Part shown: one piece after another, positions 1 through 42,347 of the stretch
How the letters are laid out: every line of letters starts with the position of its first letter
Position numbering within the stretch: position 1 is the first letter of the stretch
Assembly: GCA_035512495.1 (NCBI GenBank)
Contig: DATKDW010000057.1
Span: 1-48,472 of the forward strand
Source of the DNA: Acidimicrobiales bacterium
Lineage (GTDB): Bacteria; Actinomycetota; Acidimicrobiia; Acidimicrobiales; CADCSY01
Direction of reading: 5' to 3'
Length of the DNA: 48,472 nucleotides
Program-made: the position numbers and the translations under genes
The notes under the pieces: generated by a model
The model's database searches: none
Seen by the model: the letters and a program-made list of their open reading frames with translations, nothing else
What the model was told of the DNA's origin: nothing

Positions 1-452
<452 letters not shown>

Positions 453-620
453 ATCTCTCACAGCCTTCCCAGCCGTAGCCGGTCGTGCTGCTTCGATCGT
501 GGAGAGCCGGTTCGGGTCTGGCGAGACCGTCACCGACTGGCATCAAGATATGGATTGTTGTCCGTATCCAAATGCGGAATTGCTTTGAATGAACGTCGAC
601 ACGTCGAACCGAAGCTCGTC

Positions 621-636
621 GTGCGGACGCCCGCAC
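621..636 (-). other. Leader hairpin downstream of boxA
   Basis: GTGCGG and CCGCAC form a perfect 6-bp stem around a 4-nt loop. It sits just after boxA in the rRNA leader. It could belong to the nut-like antitermination signal or to the processing stem that pairs with sequence beyond 16S. The 3' partner lies outside the window, so this cannot be decided here. Confidence 0.4.
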
Positions 637-656
637 TCGCTTTTGAACCTTCCTCT

Positions 657-674
657 GTTCTGTTTTCAAGGAGC
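657..674 (-). promoter_or_regulatory. boxA-like rRNA antitermination site
   Basis: The minus strand reads GCTCCTTGAAAACAGAAC here, resembling the TGAAAAC-containing boxA of Gram-positive rRNA leaders, which binds NusB/NusE to make RNA polymerase resistant to termination. It lies about 205 nt upstream of 16S and downstream of both promoters, the correct order. Function is inferred from sequence and position only. Confidence 0.6.
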
Positions 675-801
675 GAGTCCTCGTCGGCACACCTCTCCCG
701 TGGGAGCGTTCGTACCTTGCGTCCCGGGCCTTGGAGCATCGGACGTGCCGACGCTGCTTGCTCCTCGCTTGATGCTCGGAGCGCTCCGGGGGCGGAGAGC
801 C

Positions 802-829
802 ATCATATCGACTCCGCCGTTGCTGTCAA
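802..829 (-). promoter_or_regulatory. rRNA promoter P2 (sigma70-type)
   Basis: On the minus strand a perfect -35 TTGACA (824-829) is followed after 16 nt by a near-consensus -10 TATGAT (802-807). The predicted start is near 795, about 340 nt upstream of mature 16S. The hexamers are the best sigma70 match I found in the window, as expected of a strong housekeeping rRNA promoter. The spacer end and the sequence after the -10 repeat those of P1. Confidence 0.85.
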
Positions 830-891
830 CTTCAGGGCCGATGCCCTTGCCCCTGCTCCTCGTTGCCGAGGCGCGTGCGGGGCGGAGCGCC

Positions 892-919
892 ACTCTACCG
901 ACTTCTCCTCGAGCTCCAA
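892..919 (-). promoter_or_regulatory. rRNA promoter P1 (tandem copy of P2)
   Basis: On the minus strand TTGGAG (914-919), a 16-nt spacer and TAGAGT (892-897) align without gaps to P2. They share the AAGTCG/GAGTCG spacer end and the GGCkCTCCGCCCC block just after the -10. The spacing and downstream block are conserved while the -35 is weaker. This suggests an ancestral duplication of the promoter unit. Whether both are active is inference. Confidence 0.6.
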
Positions 920-939
920 AGCGGGTTCCGCGCCCCTGG

Positions 940-2217
940 CTACGCCGTCGCGACGAGGAGGTGGTAGGTGCGCTTGCCCTTGCGCAGGAGCACCCAGCGG
1001 TCGTGGAGCAGCTCGGCGGTGGTGACCACGGCCTCCTCGCCGTCAACCCGGGCGCCGTTGACGTAGGCACCCGCCAGGTTGCGCCGGGCGTCACCCCGGG
1101 ACGACGCCAGGCCGGACTCGACGAAGAGGCTGACGATGTCGATGCCCTCGGCCAGGCGCCCCCGGTCGATCGAGGTGGCATCGAGCTCCTCGACGAGCAG
1201 CTCGAAGGCGCCGAGGGGAGCTTCGACGGGGTCGCCCCCGAAGAGGACGGCGCTCGCCGCCTCGGCAGCGGCGGCAGCCTCATCCCCGTGGACGAGCGCG
1301 GTGACCTCCCGGGCCAGGCGTCGCTGACCGGTCCGCTCCTGCGGTGCCCCCAGATGGGCGTCGGCCACCGCCTCGCACTCGTCGACGGGCAGCAGCGTCA
1401 GCTGGAGGAGGAAGCGGCGCACGTCGTCGTCGGGGACCTGCACCCAGTACTGGTAGAAGGCGTAGCGGCTGGTGCGCTCCGCACCCAGCCAGATGTTGCC
1501 GGCCTGGCTCTTGCCGAACTTCTGCCCGTCGGAGCGGACGAGCAGTGGCCAGGTCAGGCCGTGGACGTGGCCTCCGGAGCGACGCCGGACGAGGTCGATC
1601 CCGGCGGTGATGTTGCCCCACTGGTCCGACCCACCCACCTGCAGCTCGCACGATTCGTTGGCGTGGAGCCAGGCGTAGTCGTGGGCCTGGAGGAGCATGT
1701 AGGTGAACTCGGTGTAGGAGATGCCTTCCTCGCCCGCCAACCGGCTACGGACCGACTCCTTGGCGACCATCTGGTTGACCGTGACGTGCTTGCCGACGTC
1801 GCGGAGGAACTCGAGGAGCGTCAGATCGGCCGTCCAGGTGGCGTTGTCGACCATCACCGCCGCCGCCGGTCCGTCGAAGCTGATCATGGCCCCGAGCTGG
1901 GCCTTGATTCCGGCCAGGTTCCGGGCGAGCGTCTCGTCGTCGAGGAGGTTGCGCTCCTCGGACCGGCCGCTCGGGTCGCCGATCATCCCCGTGGCCCCCC
2001 CGGCGAGGACGATCGGGCGATGGCCGGCGAGCTGCAGGCGGCGGACCGCCAGCACGCCGACGAGGTTGCCGATGTGGAGGCTGTCGGCGGTGGGGTCGCA
2101 CCCCCAGTAGAAGCGCACCGGGCCCGCCTCGAACCGCGTGGCGAGCGCCTCGCGGTCGGTCGTGTCGTGGATCAGCCCGCGGGCGTCGAGGTCGGAGAGC
2201 ACGTCCATCGGCTTCAT
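940..2217 (-). CDS. tyrS: Tyrosyl-tRNA synthetase
   Basis: Class I aminoacyl-tRNA synthetase that charges tRNA-Tyr with tyrosine in the cytoplasm. The 425-residue product has the HIGH-type motif as HIGN (residues 48-51, within DPTADSLHIGN), the KMSKS-type loop as KFGKS (233-237), and a C-terminal S4 RNA-binding domain (GDARRNLAGAYVNG). Length is normal. The ATG at 2217 was chosen over an in-frame ATG at 2262 because GGAGGGG stands just upstream of it and the family begins at this point. The gene diverges from the penicillin-binding protein and lies upstream of the rRNA promoters on the same strand. No clear terminator separates it from them. Confidence 0.97.
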   Translation of the reverse strand: MKPMDVLSDLDARGLIHDTTDREALATRFEAGPVRFYWGCDPTADSLHIGNLVGVLAVRRLQLAGHRPIVLAGGATGMIGDPSGRSEERNLLDDETLARNLAGIKAQLGAMISFDGPAAAVMVDNATWTADLTLLEFLRDVGKHVTVNQMVAKESVRSRLAGEEGISYTEFTYMLLQAHDYAWLHANESCELQVGGSDQWGNITAGIDLVRRRSGGHVHGLTWPLLVRSDGQKFGKSQAGNIWLGAERTSRYAFYQYWVQVPDDDVRRFLLQLTLLPVDECEAVADAHLGAPQERTGQRRLAREVTALVHGDEAAAAAEAASAVLFGGDPVEAPLGAFELLVEELDATSIDRGRLAEGIDIVSLFVESGLASSRGDARRNLAGAYVNGARVDGEEAVVTTAELLHDRWVLLRKGKRTYHLLVATA

Positions 2218-2300
2218 CGTCGCCCCCTCCGGCCGACGGGTCCAACCTGATGCGCCCGCCATGCCACGTACTGGTCGCCGCTGGCGGCGACAATGGGCCC

Positions 2301-4682
2301 GTGCGCCGCCCCCCTCCCAGACTCCTCGCGACCCTGGTCGTGGTGGTCGCCCTCCTCTCCGGCGCTTGCTCCTACACCCCCGCCGAGCTCACCATCGCCG
2401 AGCCCCGGCTGGCGCAGTCGACCCGGATCCACGCCGCCGACGGCAGCCTCATCACCACCCTGCGGGCGGAGGAGAACCGCGAGAACATCCGCCTCACCGA
2501 GCTCCCCTCCCACGTCCCCGACGCCGTGCTGGCGGTGGAGGACGCCCGCTTCTGGCAGCACAACGGGGTCGATGTCCGGGCTGTGCTGCGGGCCGCAGCC
2601 GCCAACACCGCCGAGGGCCAGATCGTCGAAGGTGGCTCGACCATCACCCAGCAGTACGTCAAGAACACCATCCTCGACTCCACCCAGACCATCAACCGCA
2701 AGGTCGAGGAGGCGCTGCTGGCCATCCAGCTCGAGCGGAAGTACACCAAGGAGCGGATCCTCGAGCTCTACCTGAACACCATCTACTTCGGGAACGGCGC
2801 CTACGGGATCCAGGCCGCGGCCATGGAGTACTTCGGGGTCCCCGCCGCCGAGCTCGAGCTGGCCCAGAGCGCCACGCTCGCAGGCCTGATCCGGGCGCCC
2901 AGCGCCTTCGACCCGCACGACAACGCCGACGCCGCCGTGCGCCGGCGCGACAACGTGGTCCGTCGCATGCGCAGCCTCGACCTCATCTCCGAGTCCGAGG
3001 CGACCGCTGCCCTCGCCAGCCCCCTCGAGCTGGCCACCCGACGGGCGGAGGACCGCTACGACGCCCCCCACTTCGTCGAGCAGGTGAAGCGCTTCGTCCT
3101 GGACGACCCCCGGTTCGGGGAGACGCCGGGCGAGCGCCGCTCGCTGCTCTTCACCGGCGGCCTGCGCATCACCACCACGCTCGACCCGACGATGCAGGCC
3201 GCCGCCGAGGAGGCGGTGGGCCGGGTGCGTCCCCCCGAGCCCGGCCCCGAGGCGGCCCTCGTCTCGATCGAGGCCCCCACCGGCTTCGTCCGTGCCCTCG
3301 TCGGCGGTCGCGACTTCTTCGGCGGAGGCGAGCAGGCCAAGCTCGACCTCACCACGGGCGGCCCGGGTCGGCCCGCCGGCTCGTCCTTCAAGCCGCTGGT
3401 CCTCGCCGCCGCCCTGGAGGAGGGCATCGAGCTCGACACCGTCTACCGGTCGCCCAGCAGCATCGACATCCCGCTCACCAACGACGTGTGGCGGGTTCGG
3501 AACTACGAGGGCAGCGGAGGTGGCCGGTCGACGCTGCGCGAGTCGACGGTGCAGTCCTACAACACCGTCTACGCCCAGCTCATCCAGGAGGTGGGCCCCG
3601 CCGATGCCGTCGCCATGGCCGCCCGGCTCGGCGTGTCGTCCCCCCTCTCCGCCTACCCGTCAGCCGTGCTCGGCACCAATGACATCCACCCGATCGACAT
3701 GGCCGCCGCCTACGCCACCTTCGCCAACCGGGGGCTGCGGATCCCGCCGGCCTTCGTGACCAAGGTGGTCCGCAGCGACGGCACCGTGCTCTACCAGCAC
3801 CAGCACCGACAGACCCGGGTGATCGAGCAGTACATCGCCGACGAGGTGAACGACGTCCTGCAGGAGGTCGTCGAGCGGGGCACGGGGGTCAACGCCCGCA
3901 TCGGGCGACCGGTGGCGGGCAAGACCGGCACCGGCCAGGACCACACCGACGCCTGGTTCGTCGGCCACACGCCCGACCTCGCCACCGCCGTCTGGGTGGG
4001 CTTCCCCAACGGCCGCGTGCCCATGGTCCCCCCGGTGACGCCGATCCGGGTGACGGGTGGCTCGTGGCCGGCCCAGATCTGGCAGCTCTACACATCCGCT
4101 GCCCTTGCCGACGTGCCCATCACGCACTTCGCCGTGCCGAACCGCCCGCAGCCCGACCTCAGCGAGGAGACCGAAGCCGTCAACCCGGGCCGGGAGCTGC
4201 CCACGGTGCGCGACGTGGTGGGCATGCCCTTCGAGGACGCCGTGGCCGCCCTCACCCGTGCCGGCTTCGTGGTCCAGACCCGGGAGGTGCCGAACAATGA
4301 CTACCCGCCCGGCTACGTCGCCGCCCAGGTGCCGCGCGGGGGCGACCGAGCCGAGGGTGGCAGCACCGTCGTGATCGACGTGTCCAACGGCGAGGTCGCG
4401 GTCACGGTCCCCGACGTCTTCGGGCTCGAGGAGGCCGAGGCCATCCACCGCCTGCAGTGGCTCGGCTTCGAGATCGCCCTCACCCGTGAGCAAGAGCCGC
4501 CCTCACCCGGGAGCGAGGCACGCGCCGGCATGGTCTGGCGGCAGTCCCCCGCGGCAGGCACCACCTTCCCGCGGGGCTCCCGGGTCGCCATCTCGGTGAA
4601 CCCACCGCCACCGGACCCTCCGCCCGAGGAGGCCGAGGAAGCCGAGGAAGCCGAAGAGAATGAGGACGGCGAGGAGCCCTAG
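2301..4682 (+). CDS. Class A penicillin-binding protein with two PASTA domains
   Basis: Bifunctional peptidoglycan glycosyltransferase/transpeptidase at the outer face of the membrane, 793 residues. The glycosyltransferase domain shows catalytic Glu80 in AVEDARFWQHNG and the GGSTITQQYVKN motif. The transpeptidase domain has SSFK (361-364), SYN (419-421) and KTG (541-543). Two PASTA repeats follow (about 633-698 and 699-770), then an acidic Glu-rich tail. The N-terminus is a hydrophobic segment ending LLSGAC, which also fits the loose lipobox pattern. GTG at 2301 places this signal segment at the start; ATG at 2250 is a longer alternative that would overlap the tyrS leader. The gene stands alone between two minus-strand units. 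Confidence 0.95.
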   Translation: MRRPPPRLLATLVVVVALLSGACSYTPAELTIAEPRLAQSTRIHAADGSLITTLRAEENRENIRLTELPSHVPDAVLAVEDARFWQHNGVDVRAVLRAAAANTAEGQIVEGGSTITQQYVKNTILDSTQTINRKVEEALLAIQLERKYTKERILELYLNTIYFGNGAYGIQAAAMEYFGVPAAELELAQSATLAGLIRAPSAFDPHDNADAAVRRRDNVVRRMRSLDLISESEATAALASPLELATRRAEDRYDAPHFVEQVKRFVLDDPRFGETPGERRSLLFTGGLRITTTLDPTMQAAAEEAVGRVRPPEPGPEAALVSIEAPTGFVRALVGGRDFFGGGEQAKLDLTTGGPGRPAGSSFKPLVLAAALEEGIELDTVYRSPSSIDIPLTNDVWRVRNYEGSGGGRSTLRESTVQSYNTVYAQLIQEVGPADAVAMAARLGVSSPLSAYPSAVLGTNDIHPIDMAAAYATFANRGLRIPPAFVTKVVRSDGTVLYQHQHRQTRVIEQYIADEVNDVLQEVVERGTGVNARIGRPVAGKTGTGQDHTDAWFVGHTPDLATAVWVGFPNGRVPMVPPVTPIRVTGGSWPAQIWQLYTSAALADVPITHFAVPNRPQPDLSEETEAVNPGRELPTVRDVVGMPFEDAVAALTRAGFVVQTREVPNNDYPPGYVAAQVPRGGDRAEGGSTVVIDVSNGEVAVTVPDVFGLEEAEAIHRLQWLGFEIALTREQEPPSPGSEARAGMVWRQSPAAGTTFPRGSRVAISVNPPPPDPPPEEAEEAEEAEENEDGEEP

Positions 4683-30747: not shown

Positions 30748-30791
30748 GCCCTCCTCGATCGGCGGGCGCGCGGCGAGAACGCAGCGCGCCC
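30748..30791 (-). promoter_or_regulatory. Riboswitch expression platform
   Basis: After the aptamer, GGGCGCGC (30784-30791) can pair with GCGCGCCC (30764-30771). Its first GGG is the last part of the P1 3' strand, so P1 and this stem exclude each other. When P1 forms, GCCC (30764-30767) becomes free to pair with GGGC (30748-30751) at the ribD Shine-Dalgarno. No T-run is present. I infer translational control. Confidence 0.55.
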
Positions 30792-30911
30792 TCGCTCCCA
30801 TCCGGACTGTCACCGTCGGCCCCGGAGTTCCACCGGATCGGCCCCCGCCCGGGAGCGGGGGTTCGCGGGCTCTCACCGCCGGTCTGGGCTTCCACCATTC
30901 CCCGCGAGGGG
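30788..30911 (-). promoter_or_regulatory. FMN riboswitch (RFN element)
   Basis: The minus strand carries the conserved RFN blocks GACCGGCGGTGAGAGCCCGC, CCGGTGGAACTCCGG and GCCGACGGTGACAGTCCGGA. P1 closes as CCCTCGC (30904-30910) with GCGAGGG (30789-30795). Helix P3 is a variable GC hairpin, CCCCCGCTCCCGGGCGGGGG. It lies 43 nt upstream of the ribD start. FMN binding represses rib genes in this class. See the platform entry for the downstream mechanism. Confidence 0.96.
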
Positions 30912-30915
30912 CGTG

Positions 30916-41807: not shown

Positions 41808-42347
41808 CTAGCCGGTGGCCCGCCGGGCGGCGAGGGCAGCGGCGGCATCGGCGACGGCGCGGTCCAGGTCGTCGTTGACGACGACGTGGTCGGCGATGGC
41901 GAGGCCGCGCTCCTCCTCGCTGTCGCCCTTGGCGAGGCGCCGGGCGATGCTCTCGTCGTCGTCGCCCCGGTCCCGCATCCGCCGCTCCTGCTCGGCTCGG
42001 GACGGCGGCCGGATGAAGAGCACGAAGGCGTCGGGGAACGTCTCCTTCACGATCTGTGCGCCCTGGAGGTCGATCTCGAGCACGACGTCGCTGCCCCGGG
42101 GCGGGTCTGGACGGGGGGTGCCCTTGAGGTCGCCGTAGACCTCGAACCACTCGAGGAAGCCGTCGGCCTCGGCGTGGGCGATGAACGTCTCGTGGTCGAC
42201 CCAGACGTACGCGTCCTCGGCCTCCTCCGGCCGGCGGGGCCGCGTCGTCCACGACCGGCTGAGCCACAGGCGCGGGTCGTCGGCCACCAGGCGGGAGACG
42301 ATCGACCCCTTCCCGGCTCCCGACGGTCCGGCCACGACGACGATCAA
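41808..42347 (-). CDS. gmk: Guanylate kinase
   Basis: Phosphorylates GMP to GDP, 179 residues as annotated. P-loop GPSGAGKGS, SWTTRPRRPEEAEDAYVWVD (GMP-binding) and VVLEIDLQGAQIVKETFPDA are intact. No ATG or GTG lies in a suitable place. TTG at 42347 gives a start right at the first strand. CTG at 42359 would add TRPL and overlap the mihF stop as CTGA, similar to the ATGA/GTGA junctions elsewhere. The exact start is unresolved. Confidence 0.93.
   Translation of the reverse strand: MIVVVAGPSGAGKGSIVSRLVADDPRLWLSRSWTTRPRRPEEAEDAYVWVDHETFIAHAEADGFLEWFEVYGDLKGTPRPDPPRGSDVVLEIDLQGAQIVKETFPDAFVLFIRPPSRAEQERRMRDRGDDDESIARRLAKGDSEEERGLAIADHVVVNDDLDRAVADAAAALAARRATG

Follow-up and report, generated by a model that had tools for sequence, protein, structure and literature searches.

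Here we show that the rRNA leader of an Acidimicrobiales bacterium carries two promoter-like units, P1 and P2, each followed by the same short block at a fixed distance from the -10 hexamer. The place of the block is conserved among the leaders of relatives, the combination of -10 and block is rare elsewhere in the genome, and leaders with two such units are rare. The data suggest, with moderately more credence than doubt on our part, that P1 and P2 are tandem promoters of the housekeeping sigma factor with a lineage-fixed initiation region in which transcription would start at a G placed ninth after the -10, P2 being shared with relatives and P1 additional.

The window, as we call the whole stretch of 48,472 nucleotides analysed here, coincides at its first base with the start of contig C57 in a draft genome of 2.8 Mb and opens with the 5' part of a 16S rRNA gene (positions 1-451, minus strand; Rfam RF00177, 428.8 bits) that is truncated by the contig end. 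The rRNA leader, about 490 bases on the minus strand, lies between this gene and tyrS, an open reading frame directly upstream that encodes a tyrosyl-tRNA synthetase (940..2262, minus strand; PF00579, 1.7e-76). The closest relatives of tyrS are mostly from Acidimicrobiales, as judged by record title. Of the 80 tyrS loci kept, 59 have a 16S gene starting within 1.5 kb downstream and four have it further on; for eight others the contig stops less than 700 bases downstream, and at the remaining nine, one of which ends 29 bases after tyrS, no 16S gene was visible. Nearer to the 16S gene, the leader contains by sequence match the minus-strand elements TCCTTGAAAAC (662..672) and GAGTGCGGGCG (628..638), which we presume to be boxA-like and boxC-like. 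The former was matched with at most two differences in 105 of 107 leaders and the latter, as CAGTGCGGGCG, in 87 of 107, the window and duplicates being counted in both cases. Comparison with other rrn copies in the genome, a check proposed in the initial annotation of this DNA, was attempted by a DNA search that returned the window's own copy only; an Rfam search of the whole genome missed even the window's own 16S gene and is hence uninformative on rrn copy number, and a second copy may be absent from the draft assembly.

Elsewhere in the window there is an FMN riboswitch (30786-30913, minus strand; 82.7 bits). ARAGORN also called an 89-base tRNA-Glu (ctc) at 41922-42010 on the plus strand, where neither Rfam, run on the window, nor the genome tRNA search placed a tRNA on the contig; the call is probably false.

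Both promoter units lie on the minus strand. P1 consists of a -35 hexamer TTGGAG (914..919), a 16-bp spacer (898-913), a -10 hexamer TAGAGT (892..897) and the block GGCGCTCCGCCCC (879..891), with a presumed start at the G at 883, the ninth base after the -10. The corresponding parts of P2 are TTGACA (824..829), a 16-bp spacer (808-823), TATGAT (802..807) and the block GGCTCTCCGCCCC (789..801), with a presumed start at the G at 793. The hexamers, spacers and block letters originally described are all present, the approximate distance of 90 bp between the promoters is exactly 90 bp, and each -10 is followed by GGCkCTCCGCCCC; the range first assigned to the feature ended at 802 and so omitted the P2 block (801-789).

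A simple consensus scan of positions 1-3200 found P2 alone, with 11 of 12 matches where 0.2 sites were expected, and P1, whose -35 has three of six matches, fell below it. A model of relatives' promoters, built with the window excluded from 108 leaders that still include duplicates, gave 24.2 bits for P2 and 21.1 bits for P1. Among 2160 shuffled relatives' leaders, 99% scored below 10.6 bits and 99.9% below 17.1, the maximum being 21.8; both units thus exceed the 99.9% quantile, in a test that includes the block since the model does. The -35 and spacer of P1 contribute 1.4 of its 21.1 bits, and a 16-bp spacer is the rarest length seen among relatives (6 of 89 distinct leaders). With hexamers spaced within the 16-18 bp of housekeeping-sigma promoters, and with two units upstream of the 16S gene and pointing towards it, P1 and P2 are likely to be tandem housekeeping-sigma rRNA promoters, an assignment that the sequence and the relatives both back; that both of them fire is a prediction.

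The block was examined in relatives by picking promoters on their hexamers and the spacing between these, so that the block itself had no part in the choice. In the tyrS-linked leaders (67 relatives and the window), placed in Acidimicrobiales by record titles of which some name other groups, positions 8, 9 and 10 after the -10 were C in 64, G in 62 and C in 66 of 68; pyrimidines continue after this CGC to position 13, and positions 14-16 vary freely (0.03-0.16 bits). A second set, reached through the 16S gene and drawn mostly from different families, had CGC at position 8 in 26 of 36 leaders. Our preferred counts come from a distinct set of 95 leaders, obtained by dropping 17 of 112 as duplicates. 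In its 89 scorable Acidimicrobiales-type leaders (six scoring below 15 were left out), CGC stood at position 8 in 73, the next-commonest offsets having 6, and the ninth base after the -10 was G in 79. The same score limit removed 5/67, 1/37, 0/5 and 5/54 leaders from four earlier sets and 2/31 from the class-family set.

The fixed offset is less regular outside this group. Leaders of other Actinomycetota classes had CGC at position 8 in 2 of 49 cases, or 2 of 45 without duplicates. In 29 leaders from other families of the same class it stood at position 8 in seven, at 9 in five, at 10 in three and at 11 or 12 in two, and was absent within positions 6-12 in twelve; an order set of four leaders, scored together with the class set, had it at 8 in two. 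The leaders with CGC at 9 or 10 (L221, L222, L226, L227, L229-L231 and L116) have G at position 6 in seven cases and A in one, and the start position in such families may differ.

Within the genome, the pattern TANNNTNNNNNNYCGCCYC, which combines -10 and block, has three matches in 2.8 Mb, two of them being P1 and P2, and the third has no TTG at any spacing of 15-19 bp; a reversed control pattern gave five matches. Since TANNNTNNNNNNYCGCCYC was composed after inspecting the relatives and the window, a chance estimate of about 1e-7 for two matches in the leader is likewise after the fact. In front of this genome's tRNA genes (34 distinct ones), CGC occurred at offset 8 in 3 of 28 TANNNT sites, in a search that obtained loci for only 30 of 45 tRNA matches. 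The constancy of place in relatives (73 of the 89 distinct leaders), set against these tRNA-upstream sites, argues that the block is a functional start-region element, as had been proposed, and the comparison identifies it as real and lineage-wide.

How P1 and P2 came to resemble each other is a separate question. They had been called near-identical, a description that suits the block (12 of 13 bases) and fails for the whole promoter, which agrees at 26 of 41 bases from the -35 through the block end (-35, 3/6; spacer, 8/16; -10, 3/6). The likeness of the block is explained by selection, which would have kept it the same in both promoters; a duplication of the promoter unit, also suggested initially, is unneeded for it, as single promoters have the block too. 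For the unit as a whole the flanks, which agree in register beyond chance, argue weakly to moderately for such a duplication. P1 would then have arisen from P2, or the reverse, with selection keeping the block while the rest drifted, and we put this only slightly below an even chance.

The 41 bases upstream of the two promoters agree at 19 positions and the 39 bases downstream at 17. The best 41-bp window in the P1/P2 register, starting at 908 and 907, agrees at 28 of 41 and is the leader's best self-match; random leaders built on dinucleotides reached at least 26/41 in 45 of 1000 and 34 of 1000 cases in two runs, and at least 28/41 in 0 of 1000 in one run, the maximum in the other being 29. 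With the hexamers and block set aside, the two units share 44 of 96 bases in register where 29 are expected, a value reached by 8 of 20000 within-segment shuffles and by none of 816 other registers. Comparisons with relatives' promoters were confined to units with full flanks, available in 77 of 95 leaders and in six of the eight tandem leaders. None of the 77 comparisons reached 44 with P1 (maximum 39) or with P2 (maximum 42), whereas 30 of 2926 cross-species promoter pairs did, and the six other tandem leaders stayed at 24-35 of 96. Gapped local alignment of the flanks was weak, 885 of 2000 shuffles upstream and 140 of 2000 downstream being equally good, and a near-identical pair is absent from all same-family leaders read. 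A duplication step is mentioned for the multiple rrn promoters of mycobacteria (PMC10218544). If it happened here, the duplication would be old; it is plausible, unproved, concerns origin only and is compatible with tandem promoters as the best explanation. The stretches CAACGAGGAGCA after P1 (854-865, minus strand) and CAAGCGAGGAGCA after P2 (759-771, minus strand) stand in nearly the same register, possibly as a trace of a duplicated leader stretch.

Conservation of the second promoter in relatives, on which the initial annotation had made its reading depend, turned out to be unequal for the two units. Eleven same-family genomes were searched and five yielded a leader. A P2 counterpart was present in all five, 340-363 bases before the 16S anchor, and a P1 counterpart exceeded the threshold in one, L092, where it lies at 450 and shares the hexamer TTGGAG; in L093 the counterpart is weak. 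From these counts P2 appears as the usual rRNA promoter of the relatives and P1 as an addition, of a kind seen in a minority of leaders: in the distinct set of 95, a single unit was seen in 81 leaders, two units in eight and none in six. The single unit of most leaders, the one above-threshold counterpart in the family, the small share of the -35 and spacer in the P1 score and the failure of the consensus scan to find P1 would also fit a leader in which P2 alone is in use and P1 is a chance match just after tyrS. We regard this as unlikely, since the P1 score exceeds the 99.9% quantile of the shuffles and P1 is among just three genome matches to the -10 and block pattern.

In the same-family loci L091 and L092 the place of tyrS before the rRNA leader is taken by a gene for a sigma-70-type factor with regions 2, 3 and 4 (224-1072, plus strand, and 559-1554, minus strand, respectively); the P2-type promoter and its block are retained in both.

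The block might instead act at the RNA level, with the pre-rRNA 5' end folding on itself or pairing with the downstream boxC-like GUGCGGGCG. P2 does contain CTCCG-CCCC-CGGAG, CGCYY could pair with GGGCG, and the distance from -10 to block shifts in other families of the class. Stems formed with the block were nevertheless no longer than those obtained after shuffling the sequence downstream (means of 3.40 and 3.50, respectively; 116 units), and pairing with a leader's own boxC was no better than with the boxC of other species (4.57 against 4.59; 166 of 200 permutations as good), in 87 leaders that include duplicates; we consider this reading quite improbable. A hairpin, or a dyad in the DNA, at the start region was likewise rejected, stems of at least 5 with the block occurring in 12 of 116 units with no excess over shuffles, as was pairing of the 5' end with boxC, for which the 87 leaders gave no covariation. 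The perfect inverted repeat CTCCG-CCCC-CGGAG of the window spans 784-797 on the minus strand and includes part of the P2 block. Still less probable is that the block is a general trait of housekeeping promoters in a GC-rich lineage: tRNA promoters are similarly C-rich after the -10, yet the few tRNA-upstream -10 candidates with CGC at offset 8, against most of the rRNA leaders, rule against it as a general feature, and the -10 and block pattern matches no further promoter-like place in the genome.

For tandem promoters with a lineage-fixed initiation region we propose the following course of events. The region would comprise a stretch with pyrimidines at its end, the G at position 9 after the -10 and a pyrimidine tract, here CCCC, and RNA polymerase would most likely start at this G (883 in P1, 793 in P2) to give a transcript with 5' GCCCC. 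Reading from position 6 onwards, one meets the first purine at position 9 in 66 of the 89 distinct leaders and at position 6 itself in 17, which makes the G at position 9 the likeliest start in Acidimicrobiales-type leaders. Because the CGC offset shifts in other families of the class, the block may alternatively be a transcribed or downstream element rather than the start itself. Initiation from G would depend on GTP, and CarD, for which the genome has a gene, probably contributes to the stability of the open complex; as a best guess we favour such a start, dependent on GTP and assisted by CarD. Publications on related systems describe the rate at M. tuberculosis rrnAP3 as depending most on the initiating GTP (PMC10602862) and the effect of CarD as being affected by the G+C content of the discriminator (PMC10232725). 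We further suggest, tentatively and with more doubt than confidence, that a rRNA-specific element YYCGCYYY, with CGC at the fixed offset 8 and shifted in other families of the class, marks Acidimicrobiales-type rRNA promoters, fixes where transcription begins and, through the initial GCCCC, renders rRNA synthesis responsive to GTP and CTP, in a genome where a search for RbpA found none and whose promoters depart from the C-7 rule of E. coli.

It had been suggested that the block may be a discriminator used for growth control. The genome encodes a RelA/SpoT protein (one match over the cut-off) and has two DksA/TraR zinc-finger matches, one of which was read as a 111-aa protein. Caution on growth control is advisable because ppGpp-regulated genes of C. 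glutamicum were reported to show no discriminator motif (PMC6892785). RbpA (PF13397) was not found in the draft genome, which is 96% complete.

Most of what is known about the control of rRNA promoters was learned in E. coli, B. subtilis and mycobacteria. The loci L121 and L122, which we take to be mycobacterial, have GGCAGGGTTGCCC after the -10, with GCCC one base further on, in contrast to YYCGCYYY at a fixed offset here. In mycobacteria, rrnA has tandem promoters with a conserved CL1 motif downstream of the PCL1 -10, and rrnB lies behind tyrS (PMC10218544). The window resembles rrnA P1/PCL1 in having tandem promoters before one rRNA operon and a conserved motif just downstream of a -10, and rrnB in its upstream tyrS; a downstream boxA is a further likeness (PMC10218544). 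The motif itself differs, and CL1 belongs to PCL1 of rrnA and not to the tyrS-linked rrnB. Of the PCL1/CL1 activators, CarD was found in the draft and RbpA was not. The present case is a variant of the mycobacterial-type layout in another class, with its own motif.

The likeness to E. coli rrn P1 is looser. It extends to the distance of nine bases between -10 and start, which is a prediction here from the conserved G only, and to a GC-rich discriminator (7/8 in P1, 6/8 in P2). In E. coli rrnB P1 a start at this distance is associated with scrunching and with open complexes of low stability (PMC7822876, PMC9304144), and E. coli conserves the template G-7, equivalent to a nontemplate C two bases past the -10 (PMC7822876). 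P1 and P2 both have G at that second base, and C stands there in only 11 of the 89 distinct relatives' leaders; the presumed start is G rather than A, and the 24 bases above the -35 hold only 5 (P1) and 8 (P2) A/T, unlike an A+T-rich UP element. Because the second base is not C and the upstream DNA is not A+T-rich, we do not class P1 and P2 with E. coli rrn P1. The predicted initiating GTP would be shared with rRNA promoters of Firmicutes, whose use of it has been described (PMC9304144).

Among the matches listed in the open-access literature there was no description of such promoters for the Acidimicrobiales group. In this group, known mostly from metagenomes, a constant element at rRNA promoters offers a sequence-only handle on how rRNA output is tied to growth; it also predicts concretely with which nucleotide transcription should start.
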